Assembly (NCBI GenBank): GCA_024640845.1
Contig: JAHEEE010000039.1
Span: 1 to 36,123, forward strand
Origin: Myxococcales bacterium
GTDB taxonomy: Bacteria > Myxococcota_A > Polyangia > Polyangiales > Houyiibacteriaceae
Direction: 5' to 3'
DNA length: 36,123 nt
The notes beneath the pieces were generated by a model. The model saw nothing but the letters and a program-made list of their open reading frames with translations, was not told the DNA's origin and made no database searches. Both the position numbers and the translations under genes were made by a program. Positions 9,403 to 14,658 of this stretch are shown piece after piece. How positions within the stretch are numbered: the first letter of the stretch is position 1; each line of letters begins with the position of its first letter.

Positions 9403-9431
9403 TTGACGCCTCTGTGCGGCGCTGTTAAGGT
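9403..9431 (+). promoter_or_regulatory. Candidate sigma-70 type promoter for the Fic-like gene
   Basis: TTGACG at 9403-9408, a 17-base spacer and TAAGGT at 9426-9431. It lies in the only gap (9387-9485) between the thioredoxin gene and the Fic-like gene; a GGAGG at 9475-9479 then leads the TTG start at 9486. Confidence 0.5.
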
Positions 9432-9485
9432 CGGCCGCCCCGATGGGGCCGGCGGTGCGGGTACGTCGTAGTTGGAGGCATTTCC

Positions 9486-10241
9486 TTGGTTCAAGCGCTT
9501 CAGGGTCCGAGCTTAGAAGAGCGGGTTAGCACGCTACGCGAGTTGATCGACGCTTCGTCGGAGGAGGTCCTCACCGAGTATCAAGCGCGCTTCGACATCG
9601 CGTGGATCTATCACGACAGCGCGCTCGAAGGGGTCGTGTACTCGATGGACGAGCTCCGCGCGGCCATGAGCGATGAGATCGTGACCGATACATCCATGAT
9701 CCCGGTCTACGACGAGATTCGCAATCACATGGGCGCAATCGAGATGATTCGCGAGATGTCGACGCGCCGTCGTTTCAACGTGAGTCTCGAGGTCATCAAG
9801 AAGCTCTTCGCGCAGCTCGCGCCGGAGGAGCTAGAAGGCAAGGGCCCGCCCAAGTACCGCAAAGACATGCCGCTTCACCGGCTGTACTTTCACGAAATCT
9901 CCCAGCCCGACAAGATCAGCTATCGCATGCGACAACTCGTGCAGTGGCTGTCCGATCCCGAGACCAAAAAGACGATGCATCCGGTGCGCATGGCGAGCAA
10001 GGCGCACTTCCAGTTGCTGCACATCTATCCCTTCCCGCGCCACAGCGGCAAGGTCGCGCGGCTGGTGATGAACTTGATCTTGATGCGCGCGGGGTATCCG
10101 CCCGTCGTCATTCACGCGACGGAGCGGCAGCGATACTACGAAGCGTTGCGCAACGGCGAGGACGCGACTTCGACGCTAGTCAACCAAGCGCTCGGCGCCG
10201 CGATCGAGACGGCGATCCAGTACTTCGACGAGGATGCCTAA
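9486..10241 (+). CDS. Fic-fold protein with degenerate catalytic motif
   Basis: 251 residues from a TTG start six bases after GGAGG. The N-terminal half contains IYHDSALEGVVYSMDEL, which corresponds to the inhibitory-helix region (xxxEG) of Fic proteins, then an all-helical core. At residues 179-192 it reads HIYPFPRHSGKVAR, followed by LVMN. Aligned with the canonical Fic motif HPFxxGNGRxxR, the catalytic His is Tyr181, the acidic residue is Arg185, GN becomes HS, and the first Arg is Lys189. Only PF, the second Gly and the last Arg remain. The fold therefore seems kept while AMP transfer by the usual mechanism is unlikely. It could be a regulatory or binding protein, or use different chemistry. 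It stands alone, with its own promoter candidate, convergent with thiE nine bases beyond its stop. Confidence 0.75.
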   Translation: MVQALQGPSLEERVSTLRELIDASSEEVLTEYQARFDIAWIYHDSALEGVVYSMDELRAAMSDEIVTDTSMIPVYDEIRNHMGAIEMIREMSTRRRFNVSLEVIKKLFAQLAPEELEGKGPPKYRKDMPLHRLYFHEISQPDKISYRMRQLVQWLSDPETKKTMHPVRMASKAHFQLLHIYPFPRHSGKVARLVMNLILMRAGYPPVVIHATERQRYYEALRNGEDATSTLVNQALGAAIETAIQYFDEDA

Positions 10242-10832: not shown

Positions 10833-11676
10833 TCGTGAGCCTCCCGTAGAGCTCGGGTCGGCGATCTCGGAAAAACCCCCAGTTGGCCCGGTATCTGCGA
10901 AGCGCCTCGCGGTCGAACGATGCCACCGCGACTCCCTCCTCGTCGCGGCCGAGCTCGACCCTCATGTCACCGCGCTGATCGCAGACGAAAGAGCTTCCGT
11001 AGAAGCGGAGCGCCGTTTCGGAGCCGATTCGGTTTGCCGCGGCGACCGGCATCGCATTGGCCACCGCGTGTCCCAGCATCACTCGCTGCCACGGGGCACA
11101 TGTGTCCTCTTCGGGGGCTCCCGGCTCGCTGCCGATCGCGGTCGGGTACAACAACGCTTCTGCCCCACCGAGCGCCATGGCACGCGCCGCTTCGGGAAAC
11201 CATTGATCCCAGCAAATTCCAACGCCTATCCGGCCGTGTCGGGTATTCCACACGCGAAATCCGGTGTCCCCGGGCCGGAAGTAGAACTTCTCTTCGTAGC
11301 CTGGCCCGTCCGGGATGTGGCTCTTGCGATAGACGCCGAGCATTGCGCCGCCGGCGTCCACCATGGCAACGCTGTTGTAGTGAGCCTGGCCCGCGCGCTC
11401 GAAAAACGAGACGGGGAGCACTACGTCGAGCTCGTCGGCGAGCTTTTGCATGTGCCCGATGGTCGGGTGCCCCTCGAGGGCCGCGGCGAGGTCGAATGCG
11501 CTCTCGTCCTCGGCTTGCGGGAAATACTTCCCTTCGAGGAGCTCGGGTGTGAGCACGACCTTGGCGCCTTGGCGCGCAGCTTCGCGAACGAGGGAGCTCA
11601 CGCGTGCGACGTTGTCGTCGCGGCTTTCCGCGAGGGCGCATTGAACGACGGCAATTGAAAGCTGAGCGGCGGTCAT
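10813..11676 (-). CDS. aguB: N-carbamoylputrescine amidase
   Basis: 287 residues from the ATG at 11676, which overlaps the aguA stop (ATGA); the open frame runs 17 codons further upstream but that part is unlike the family. A nitrilase-fold carbon-nitrogen hydrolase with the catalytic triad E45 (LTPELLEGKYF), K118 (YRKSHIPDG) and C155 (GICWDQWFPEAAR). The motifs PDGPGYEEKFYFRPGDTGF and CWDQWFPEAARAMALGGAE are those of plant/bacterial AguB. It hydrolyses N-carbamoylputrescine to putrescine, CO2 and ammonia, the step directly after AguA, which fits the coupling of the two genes. Confidence 0.93.
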   Translation of the reverse strand: MTAAQLSIAVVQCALAESRDDNVARVSSLVREAARQGAKVVLTPELLEGKYFPQAEDESAFDLAAALEGHPTIGHMQKLADELDVVLPVSFFERAGQAHYNSVAMVDAGGAMLGVYRKSHIPDGPGYEEKFYFRPGDTGFRVWNTRHGRIGVGICWDQWFPEAARAMALGGAEALLYPTAIGSEPGAPEEDTCAPWQRVMLGHAVANAMPVAAANRIGSETALRFYGSSFVCDQRGDMRVELGRDEEGVAVASFDREALRRYRANWGFFRDRRPELYGRLTSDDPTE

Positions 11677-12671
11677 GGGGCGTGGGGCTCGGGTTGGGTG
11701 GCGCAATGGAACGCGCCGCCTCCACATAGCAGGTCTCGCGCGGGAAGGCCGATCACCTCGCGCCCCTGAAACGCATGGCCGATGGCCTCAAGGGCGGCAT
11801 CGTCTTCCGGCAACCCATAGGTCGGGACGATCACTGCACCGTTGGCAACGTAGAAGTTGCAATAGCTCGCCGGCAGCGGCGCGCCTCGTGTGTCCGCGAG
11901 GGCGGAAGGTGCCGGGATCTCGACGATCGAAAGCCCCTCATCGCGCAACACCCCCGCTATCTTGCGGAGGATCCCGGCGTTCGGCACCTCTCCGGTGGGC
12001 CGCATGCTGAGCACCGTGTCGGCCGATGCAAAGCGAGCGATCATGTCGACGTGCCCGTCGGTATGATCGTGCCGCAGGCCCCGTTCGAGCCAAATGACTC
12101 GCCTCAGCTCGCAGAGCTCAGCGAGCGCGTGTTCGAAGGCCTCGCGCGTGAGCCCCGGGTTCCGGTTCGGGTTGAGCGTGCACGACTCCGTCGTCAGGAA
12201 GGTCCCCCCGCCATTCGAGTCGAGCGCGCCGCCCTCCAAGAACAGCTTGCTTTTCGCGGCGCGGGCGCCAAGGCGGTCGAGCCACCAGTCCCCGACGCTA
12301 TTGTCGAAGGGCATCTCGTACTTGCCTCCCCACCCGTTGAACCGGAAGCGGAGCCCATGGAGCCGGCCCTGCGCATCGTGCCCGAGGAGCGGGAGCGTGT
12401 CGCGAAGCCAGCAGTCGCCGTAGGCGGCGGGCACATACTCGATGCCGGCCGCGTTTCCGAGTAGCGCGCGTGCTTGCCGCTCGACGTCCGCGTTGCGGAC
12501 GAGAAGGCGTACGGGCTCCTTGCCCGGGCCGGCGATCGCAAGGCACAACGAAGCGATCGAGCGCTGCGCCATCGGAAGGCCGAGCGGCCACTCCTCAGCG
12601 AGGTGCGGGAACGCGAGCCAGCACGCCTCGTGCCGTTCCCACTCTCCTGGGACTCTGAACCGCTCTTTCAC
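11673..12671 (-). CDS. aguA: Agmatine deiminase
   Basis: 332 residues of the PPAD (Porphyromonas-type peptidylarginine deiminase) family. Recognisable parts: PGEWERHEACWLAFPH near the N-terminus, GDCWLRDTLP, GWGGKYEMPFDNSVG, LEGGALDSNGGGTFLTTESCTLNPNRNPG, the HDHTDGHVDMIARF active-site segment, and the catalytic cysteine C323 in GGGAFHCATQ close to the C-terminus. It converts agmatine to N-carbamoylputrescine and ammonia. It lies nine bases after the kinase-like gene and overlaps aguB. The length is slightly below the usual 340-370 residues, but all core motifs are present. Confidence 0.94.
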   Translation of the reverse strand: MKERFRVPGEWERHEACWLAFPHLAEEWPLGLPMAQRSIASLCLAIAGPGKEPVRLLVRNADVERQARALLGNAAGIEYVPAAYGDCWLRDTLPLLGHDAQGRLHGLRFRFNGWGGKYEMPFDNSVGDWWLDRLGARAAKSKLFLEGGALDSNGGGTFLTTESCTLNPNRNPGLTREAFEHALAELCELRRVIWLERGLRHDHTDGHVDMIARFASADTVLSMRPTGEVPNAGILRKIAGVLRDEGLSIVEIPAPSALADTRGAPLPASYCNFYVANGAVIVPTYGLPEDDAALEAIGHAFQGREVIGLPARDLLCGGGAFHCATQPEPHAP

Positions 12672-12680
12672 CGGCCGATC

Positions 12681-13682
12681 CTACCACGGGAGGACCGCGG
12701 CTTCACCGAAGCGCGCAACGAGATCATCGACGTGATCGAGCACGGCTTGGCGCCGCTGGCGCAACCCGTCGAGCTGCTTCTCGTTGAGAACGGGAGCCAG
12801 CGGGTCGTCTTCGAGTCGCTTGGCAAAGGCGTCGACGTCGAGCTCTCGCACCGCGTCGATCGTCGCGCGACGAAAGCGTTGTAGCGCCTTGAGCCTCGCC
12901 TCCATCAACCCGAGACGCTGCTCCCCGAGCCAGAATCCGGCTCCGTTGTCGAGATAGATCAGCGGCCCACCGTCGCCGCGTGTTCGAACGTTGGTGAAGT
13001 TGCCCCCCCATCGGTCGACGTTCTGCGTGAGGTAGTCGAAGAGAATCAGATCCGAGAGCTCGGCCGGCCTCGTCTCGGTGTCCGGCGATTTCGCGAGCGG
13101 TCGGCTCGGATCGGTCGCTTCACGTACACCGGGTCGGCGATTGAGATCGGCGCGGTAGTCCACTGGCCGTTGATACGGAGTGACTGGCAGTGTCTTCTGG
13201 ACCCTCACCCAACTCTCCCATTGTCGTCCCATGCGCAGCCGTTTCAGCGGGTCGGGTATCCACCAGACGAATGCGCCCTTGATCGTGCCATCAGGAGCGA
13301 TGCCGAGCTCCATCACACGATCATCGCCCCGCGCGGCCTTTCTCAGCTCGTCCCATTCGAACCTGCGGCCCGTCGTTGGCGGAACGCGTCCGATTCCAAG
13401 CTCGCGATCCAGATAGTACGCGGCGAGCTCCGAGTACCAGTGCGCGGCAGAAAACGCCTGCTTCGGTTTGAAATAGCCCTTCGTTCCGTCCTCGAGCGTG
13501 ATTTGAAACGCGAGGCTTCGACCGCCCTTCCCCTTCTTCACCTCGGCAATCGGAGACTCCCGTAGCGACGCGATGCGTGGACCGTCCGGTTCCCCGAGGA
13601 ACGCCGGCGTAGCTTCATCTGCGGCACTTGGGAGCGCGAAGAGAAGGGGAGCGAGCAAGGCAACGGGGACGATTCTCAGCAC
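12681..13682 (-). CDS. Secreted FAM20-like (Four-jointed/HipA-related) kinase
   Basis: About 333 residues from a GTG at 13682, chosen because it gives a signal peptide (RIVPVALLAPLLFALPSAADEA) ten bases after the preceding stop; the open frame extends to 14024 but only as a shadow of the upstream gene. Numbering from this GTG, GTKGYFKPKQAF carries a candidate ATP-binding Lys (K72). WYSELAAYYLDRELG carries a candidate Glu pair partner. NVDRWGGNFTN (N221, D223, N228) matches the N-x-D-R-x4-N catalytic loop, and YLDNGAGF (D245, N246) matches the DNG metal motif of FAM20C/Four-jointed kinases. If active it would phosphorylate an extracytoplasmic target. It lies inside an agmatine/ornithine operon; the link is unexplained. 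A lipid or small-molecule substrate is possible. Confidence 0.65.
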   Translation of the reverse strand: MLRIVPVALLAPLLFALPSAADEATPAFLGEPDGPRIASLRESPIAEVKKGKGGRSLAFQITLEDGTKGYFKPKQAFSAAHWYSELAAYYLDRELGIGRVPPTTGRRFEWDELRKAARGDDRVMELGIAPDGTIKGAFVWWIPDPLKRLRMGRQWESWVRVQKTLPVTPYQRPVDYRADLNRRPGVREATDPSRPLAKSPDTETRPAELSDLILFDYLTQNVDRWGGNFTNVRTRGDGGPLIYLDNGAGFWLGEQRLGLMEARLKALQRFRRATIDAVRELDVDAFAKRLEDDPLAPVLNEKQLDGLRQRRQAVLDHVDDLVARFGEAAVLPW

Positions 13683-13692
13683 CCGCGGGAGC

Positions 13693-14658
13693 CTACCCGT
13701 CGACGCCGACGAGGTCGATTTCGACGCCAAGGCCGTGGGCCCGCGCTGCATCGTAGATCGCCCGGGCAAGCGAGACGTCTTGAATCGCGAGACCGGTCGA
13801 GTCGAAAATCGTCGTGACAGCGTAGGCAGGCTTTGGAAGCAATCCCGCGACCACCTCTCCAAGCGTCCCCGCGATGTCGTCGATCGCGAACTCGCCTCGC
13901 GCGAGTGGCACGTTGATCTCACCGCTTCCCTCAGCCTGGTGAATGTCGTCGATATAGACGGCCGCCGCGCGGAGAAGGCCTGACGCGAGCTCTTGCTTTC
14001 CCGGTGCGTCGGCGCCCATCGCATTGATATGGGCGCCGGGAGTGACCCAGTCGGGCTCTAGAAATGGCACGCGCGACGGGGTTGCCGTGCAGACGATGTC
14101 GGCCGAAGCGGCCGTCTGCAGGCTCACTACGCGCCCGCCAACCTCGCTGGCAAACAGCGCGGCGTTCTCGGGGCTCTTATCGTGCACGAGGGCTTCGAAG
14201 CTGCCGAAGATCGCCCGATGAGCACCGTGGAGTGTGCGCGCTTGCGCGCCGGCGCCGATGAAGGCGATGGTCCTAGGCGAGGGAGAGGCGAGGTGTTTCG
14301 AGGCGACACCCGCCGCGGCGCCGGTTCGCAGCGCGGTGAGCGACGTGCCGTCCATGACAGCCAAAGGGAAGGCATTGCGGGGATCGTTGAGCACGTAGAC
14401 ACCCATCACCGTCGGTAGGTCGTGCCGTTCGCGATTGTGCCCGTGCACGTTGACCCACTTGATGCCGGCGGATGGCCCGAGGCGCGCGGGCATCGCGCGA
14501 AAGTCGCCGTCGTGGTCCTCGATTGGGAGGTAGACCTTGGGGGGCATCGAGGCTTCCCCACGGCCAAAGGCCTCGAACGCCGATTCGACGGCAGCCACCG
14601 CCAAATCCATCGTGGCGACGCGTTCGACCTCGGCGCGGGTCAAAACCAGTGTCTTCAT
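13693..14658 (-). CDS. Ornithine cyclodeaminase / mu-crystallin family dehydrogenase
   Basis: 321 residues. N-terminal substrate domain (MDLAVAAVESAFEAFGRGEASMPPKVYL), then the Rossmann part with TIAFIGAGAQARTLHGAH as the NAD-binding loop. Further family motifs are GIKWVNVHGHN (substrate Lys region), LDMTSLTALRTGA-like DGTSLTALRTGAAAG, and GAHINAMGADAPGKQEL. Members act as ornithine cyclodeaminase (ornithine to proline), alanine dehydrogenase, or ketimine reductase; the sequence alone does not decide which. With agmatine catabolism downstream, an arginine/ornithine-related substrate is attractive. GGAGGG lies seven bases before the ATG. First gene of a five-gene minus-strand operon ending with thiE. 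Confidence 0.85.
   Translation of the reverse strand: MKTLVLTRAEVERVATMDLAVAAVESAFEAFGRGEASMPPKVYLPIEDHDGDFRAMPARLGPSAGIKWVNVHGHNRERHDLPTVMGVYVLNDPRNAFPLAVMDGTSLTALRTGAAAGVASKHLASPSPRTIAFIGAGAQARTLHGAHRAIFGSFEALVHDKSPENAALFASEVGGRVVSLQTAASADIVCTATPSRVPFLEPDWVTPGAHINAMGADAPGKQELASGLLRAAAVYIDDIHQAEGSGEINVPLARGEFAIDDIAGTLGEVVAGLLPKPAYAVTTIFDSTGLAIQDVSLARAIYDAARAHGLGVEIDLVGVDG

Follow-up and report, generated by a model that had tools for sequence, protein, structure and literature searches.

A gene for a Fic protein with a dismantled catalytic motif lies in the window (the whole stretch of DNA analysed, 36,123 nucleotides from a Myxococcales bacterium), raising the question of whether it is a damaged copy of an active enzyme or a protein kept for another role. 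Kinase and phosphatase pseudoenzymes have been studied extensively. The analyses below point to a class II, FICD-like Fic protein that probably lost catalysis once, in an ancestor shared by much of Myxococcota, and now acts as a non-enzymatic binding module. The gene and its elements are as follows.

9486-10241, + strand: Fic pseudoenzyme gene, 251 aa, with a conserved TTG start and a TAA stop
9403-9431, + strand: sigma-70-like promoter of the Fic gene, TTGACG-N17-TAAGGT, from a footprint across loci
9474-9478, + strand: Shine-Dalgarno sequence GGAGG, 7 nt upstream of the TTG
9612-9632, + strand: inhibitory-helix motif HDSALEG, residues 43-49, in which Glu48 corresponds to FICD Glu234 and Asp44 replaces the canonical Ser/Thr
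9858-9899, + strand: putative target-docking flap RKDMPLHRLYFHEI, residues 125-138, placed by alignment to FICD
10026-10061, + strand: dismantled catalytic loop YPFPRHSGKVAR, residues 181-192, compared with HPFx[D/E]GNGRxxR

Fold and domain identity

Fic (PF02661) is the sole Pfam match above its curated cut-off in the 251-aa protein, with 44.6 bits against a cut-off of 24 (E 2.8e-11). When solved structures were searched, human FICD was found both by phmmer with the single sequence (E 2e-22) and with the family profile (E 4.3e-39). The AlphaFold2 model, built from a 109-sequence alignment, has a mean pLDDT of 94.2 and a pTM of 0.91, and FICD entries rank first in its structure comparison (6i7l, Z 28.3, rmsd 2.2 over 236 residues). 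A distant orthologue, L182, with roughly one quarter of its residues identical to those of the window protein, was likewise predicted with a pLDDT of 96.2 and a Z of 28.8 to FICD. Judged by the predicted structure, the window protein is a member of the Fic-fold family, in agreement with the preliminary description, which had recognised the fold from the letters and proposed structure prediction as a check. The protein spans the inhibitory helix and the Fic core; no TPR domain match was found in it, and about 25 residues and one helix are all that precede the inhibitory helix segment. Identity with XopAC was considered and rejected, the match being to the shared Fic domain only and far below the XopAC family cut-off.

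Loss of the catalytic motif across orthologues

In the window protein, the canonical His is replaced by Tyr181, the acidic residue by Arg185, the first Gly of GNG by His186, Asn by Ser187 and the first motif Arg by Lys189, while Pro182, Phe183, Gly188 and Arg192 are kept; the motif had been described as dismantled, and this reading holds. Aligned to FICD, Tyr181 corresponds to His363, Arg185 to Asp367, Ser187 to Asn369, Lys189 to Arg371, Arg192 to Arg374, Glu48 to Glu234 and Asp44 to Thr230, with the numbering taken from PMC12974487 and PMC8373988 and Thr230 placed by counting back from Glu234.

Motif statistics were gathered from 162 distinct Myxococcota orthologue sequences. Position 181 is Tyr in 77, Phe in 76, Trp in 7, Ser in 1 and His in 1, so that the catalytic His is absent from 161/162. 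The acid at position 185 is lost in 144 orthologues (Asp/Glu in 18/162), the first Gly of GNG at position 186 is present in 0/162, the Asn at position 187 is lost in 160 (present in 2/162), and Arg stands at position 189 in 15/162. None of these five catalytic positions is matched in 133 of the 162 orthologues, and at most two are matched in any. The motif residues held across the family are Pro182, Gly188 and Arg192, together with positions 181 and 183, which are held only as aromatics. Since the dismantled motif is conserved in orthologues, it is not a chance occurrence. Some branches still carry the acid and the first motif Arg, as in FPWPDISGRVAR, while the loss of His is common to the clade; this pattern suggests that what the members share is the missing His and that the metal and phosphate residues were eroded unevenly. 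The sole orthologue with His at position 181, L093 (HPFARHSGKLAR), has lost the remaining catalytic positions.

The suggestion that His179 and His186 might support a different chemistry did not survive the comparison, as residue 179 varies among His, Arg and Gln and residue 186 among His, Asp, Gln and Asn. Catalysis through the Tyr181 hydroxyl was rejected in view of the nearly equal numbers of Tyr and Phe at that position, and catalysis through Lys189 because this residue is not conserved. The idea of a Fic pseudoenzyme, by comparison, gains support from the loss of catalytic residues across the family.

Conservation outside the catalytic loop

Several residues beyond the loop are invariant or nearly so in the orthologues: Arg125, Arg192, Arg214 and Tyr217 (each 162/162), Gly49, Glu/Asp at 48 and Asp/Glu at 44 (each 161/161), Tyr134 (161/162) and His174 (159/162). 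The flap residues His131, Arg132 and His136 are mostly conserved. The class II inhibitory Glu-Gly/Asn, N-terminal to the core, is present as Glu48-Gly49, and the near-invariance of this pair bears out the earlier observation that an inhibitory-helix-like ALEG segment is retained (HDSALEG). The first position of the class II motif [S/T]xxxE[G/N] is Ser/Thr in 0/161 orthologues and Ser in 26 of 27 other Fics; the protein departs from class II Fics at this one inhibitory-motif position. Because Ser at position 44 occurs in 26/27 other Fics and Tyr at 134 in 0/27, the aromatic residue at 181, the acidic residue at 44 and Tyr134 serve as markers of the clade.

Distribution, phylogeny and selection

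A profile search at E 1e-15 found the gene in 207/212 genomes of the class and in 120/122 genera, mostly as one copy (genomes at least 90% complete; every best match listed at 1e-55 or better). It is present in 171/183 genomes of the order, with more distant orthologues in other parts of Myxococcota, and encodes the only Fic domain found in the source genome (4.1 Mb, 145 contigs). The pseudo-Fic is a class-wide core family, not a single-gene oddity. When 61 pseudo-Fics were compared with 27 other Fics, of which 26 have an intact motif and one is a separately degenerate plasmid Fic, the two sets were split on one branch with an SH-aLRT of 100, and again with 99 after removal of the motif and inhibitory-helix columns, in unrooted trees from quick searches without bootstrap.

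A scan of viral contigs found no relative. Three of the plasmid matches were inspected: the motif is ordinary in two of them, and the third, L232, has degenerated separately. This Fic, on the Aneurinibacillus plasmid NZ_CP116888.1, carries SPFFVGNGKTAR, with the catalytic His changed to Ser and the Asp to Val, and falls outside the pseudo-Fic clade as an independent degenerate Fic in Bacillota.

Against 15 near orthologues, dN/dS ranges from 0.054 to 0.107, and dN is lower around the cleft and the flap. At the same loci, protein identity is 87% for Fic versus 67% for ThiE, 75% for AguB, 68% for TlpA and 75% for the kinase. Purifying selection on the Fic gene is stronger than on the neighbouring metabolic genes.

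Expression signals and neighbourhood

The promoter-like TTGACG-N17-TAAGGT occurs at the same distance from the Fic gene in 17/17 near-genus loci, and an element of the pattern TTGAC(G)-N17-TAnnnT is also present in several more distant loci of the same family. A mechanical consensus scan did not report the element at 9403-9431, and its support therefore comes from the phylogenetic footprint. A GGAG-type Shine-Dalgarno sequence is kept ahead of the start in family-level loci; a TTG start behind such a strong Shine-Dalgarno sequence may hold translation down. The TTG itself (9486-9488) is kept in nearly all family-level orthologues despite large divergence of the protein. With its conserved promoter and start and its low dN/dS, the gene is intact and not decaying, as had been proposed from its own promoter and ribosome-binding site.

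The upstream histidine kinase and TlpA-like genes and the downstream thiE persist mainly among nearer relatives, and elsewhere the neighbours change. They vary by lineage and include ThiE and, as identified by eye from sequence only, RibA, IlvE, RecN, RsmH/FtsI and HisF. No constant neighbour of at least 110 aa was found across 163 loci. An operon with the upstream kinase and TlpA-like genes was rejected, the arrangement being confined to nearer relatives and the Fic gene having its own promoter. Two further genes of the window were recorded. A 447-aa open reading frame at 12681-14024 (- strand) has a C-terminal match to Pfam Fam20C, a secretory-pathway kinase family, in a bacterium (E 3.7e-9). 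At 11673-12671 (- strand), an agmatine-deiminase-like protein gives a strong PAD_porph match in two pieces and adjoins a clear AguB, and it scores far below the agmatine deiminase equivalog cut-off.

Histone-H1-like tails

At 26 loci, picked by a simple composition rule, the pseudo-Fic domain is preceded in the same frame by an N-terminal extension of 160-400 residues that is rich in Lys, Ala, Pro and Arg. These loci are:

L025, 7290-8759: tailed pseudo-Fic
L029, 6807-8756: tailed pseudo-Fic
L188, 5798-7756: tailed pseudo-Fic
L026 and 22 others: tailed pseudo-Fics

Tailed orthologues in Polyangiaceae come from Sorangium (L026, L029), Polyangium (L032), Minicystis (L025), Byssovorax (L030) and others. 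Many extensions begin with MAAKKTRK or MAARKARK. Lys makes up 12-29% of the extension versus 5-7% of the Fic core in six orthologues, and the GC3 of the extension is 0.76-0.93 in ten. Pfam reports Fic only in the tailed proteins, and "H1-like" is a description by composition with no family match. The window protein is the stand-alone form, with no tail of any kind. Short basic C-terminal tails were seen in L102, L196 and L197, and acidic ones in L045, L052, L057 and L059.

CarD is tethered to DNA and the nucleoid by its tail (PMC4374960). With this precedent and their composition, the H1-like tails of the pseudo-Fics may likewise bind DNA.

Proposed function and alternative explanations

In FICD, pairing of Glu234 with Arg374 inhibits AMPylation, and deAMPylation needs Glu234 and His363 (PMC8373988, PMC6826200, PMC12974487). 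Both reactions need the His, and the H363A variant forms a stable trap for AMPylated BiP (PMC8373988, PMC6826200). Since Glu48 and Arg192 are kept and the His, the acid and the GNG nest are lost, neither AMPylation nor deAMPylation would be expected of the pseudo-Fics from the established mechanism. A protein lacking the catalytic residues could still dock a partner protein through its flap. A non-catalytic binding module is preferred because neither reaction is expected and docking by the flap is still possible. As judged from the alignment to FICD, the inhibitory helix would stay docked through a Glu48-Arg192 salt bridge, leaving the cleft permanently closed to triphosphate, and the conserved flap and cleft rim would hold a partner protein rather than modify it. 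In tailed orthologues, the H1-like tail would tether the pseudo-Fic to DNA, in the way known for CarD and its HMGA/H1-like tail. The preliminary description had named both nucleotides and proteins as possible ligands; nucleotide binding appears less likely, because the GNG phosphate nest is lost.

The main rival, which we regard as unlikely, is that a different reaction takes place in a rebuilt cleft, as AvrB uses UDP-rhamnose, through His43, Asp44 and Glu48 of the inhibitory helix, Tyr134 of the flap, and His174, Arg192, Arg214 and Tyr217 of the helices. The proposed residues are invariant or nearly so in the 162 orthologues, Asp44 and Tyr134 are specific to the pseudo-Fic clade, and AvrB, which appears in the structure list with a Z of 12.1, sets the example of a Fido protein with a divergent motif that is an active glycosyltransferase (PMC10866546). 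However, Glu48, Arg125, His174, Arg192 and Tyr217 are conserved in ordinary Fics too and can be structural, and Arg192 is the only conserved residue of the catalytic loop able to do chemistry. Less probable still is a ligand sensor, which would signal the level of a nucleotide or diphosphate metabolite that its cleft binds but does not turn over. The retention of Arg192 and Gly188 and the nanomolar affinity of FICD for farnesyl pyrophosphate (PMC12974487) would suit such a sensor, but this ligand contacts FICD at Asp367, Asn369 and Arg371 (PMC12974487), three positions that most orthologues have not kept, and none of the 162 retains the first Gly of the GNG nest.

A toxin-antitoxin or defence module with the Fic as an inactive or regulatory component is strongly disfavoured and most improbable. 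Matches to PADLOC candidate Fic models were obtained (the best to PDC-S04, E 1.7e-16), as any class II Fic would give, but a gene present in nearly every genome of the class, mostly in single copy and with no other Fic domain found in the source genome, argues against it, and among neighbours of at least 110 aa the lack of a constant one means that it is not a toxin-antitoxin pair. The view that an active Fic has suffered a local mutation here, or is decaying into a pseudogene, found no support and is refuted by the motif change common to the whole clade, in which no orthologue has an intact motif, by the dN/dS of 0.05-0.11 and by the conserved promoter and start.

A non-enzymatic binding module is thus the preferred reading. 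A bolder version of it, offered tentatively, is that an AMPylase fold became a nucleoid-associated adaptor and class-wide core regulator, whose pseudo-Fic domain would grip a core protein, perhaps one belonging to the transcription, replication or chaperone machinery; in Polyangiaceae the H1-like tail would bring that protein to DNA. The family combines a single origin and near-universal presence in a bacterial class with an autoinhibitory Glu/Arg pair kept while catalysis was lost, and it is fused to H1-like tails in the cultivable genera Sorangium, Polyangium and Minicystis. It makes the role of a non-catalytic Fic fold, and the protein that it recognises, directly testable.

Comparison with known systems

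Full-text literature searches found no described Fic pseudoenzyme family kept as a core gene, the nearest cases being BepC, AvrB and a His-to-Gln Doc clade. By the sequence features tested, the window protein is not a catalytic AMPylase, FICD/HYPE proper or a FicTA module. Human FICD/HYPE and C. elegans FIC-1, class II AMPylases/deAMPylases, align with it end to end over the Fic core and the N-terminal inhibitory helix, sharing the inhibitory Glu-Gly, the second motif Arg, the His that precedes the motif and the Tyr that follows it. Unlike them, the pseudo-Fic has no TPR, has lost the catalytic His, the Mg-binding Asp, the first Gly and Asn of GNG and R1, and carries Asp/Glu in place of the inhibitory-motif Ser/Thr.

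Bartonella BepC is similar in that its Fic domain acts by binding and its catalytic His is dispensable (PMC7842913, PMC8401265), but its motif is largely retained, His and Asn included; it is a secreted effector with a BID domain and falls outside the pseudo-Fic clade. AvrB also has a Fido fold with a strongly divergent catalytic motif (PMC10866546), whereas it is an active rhamnosyltransferase, is not autoinhibited (PMC12974487) and shows modest structural similarity to the model. Doc-like clade D2 offers an entire Fic/Doc clade without the catalytic His, which is replaced by Gln (PMC4454073); its motif, Qx[F/Y]x[D/E][G/V]NKR, is otherwise intact, in contrast to the pseudo-Fics, which lack His, acid, Gly and Asn. 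Myxococcus CarD and CdnL offer a possible parallel in architecture, with one protein-binding domain that occurs in myxobacteria with or without an HMGA/histone-H1-like DNA-binding tail (PMC4374960), although the folded domain is unrelated.
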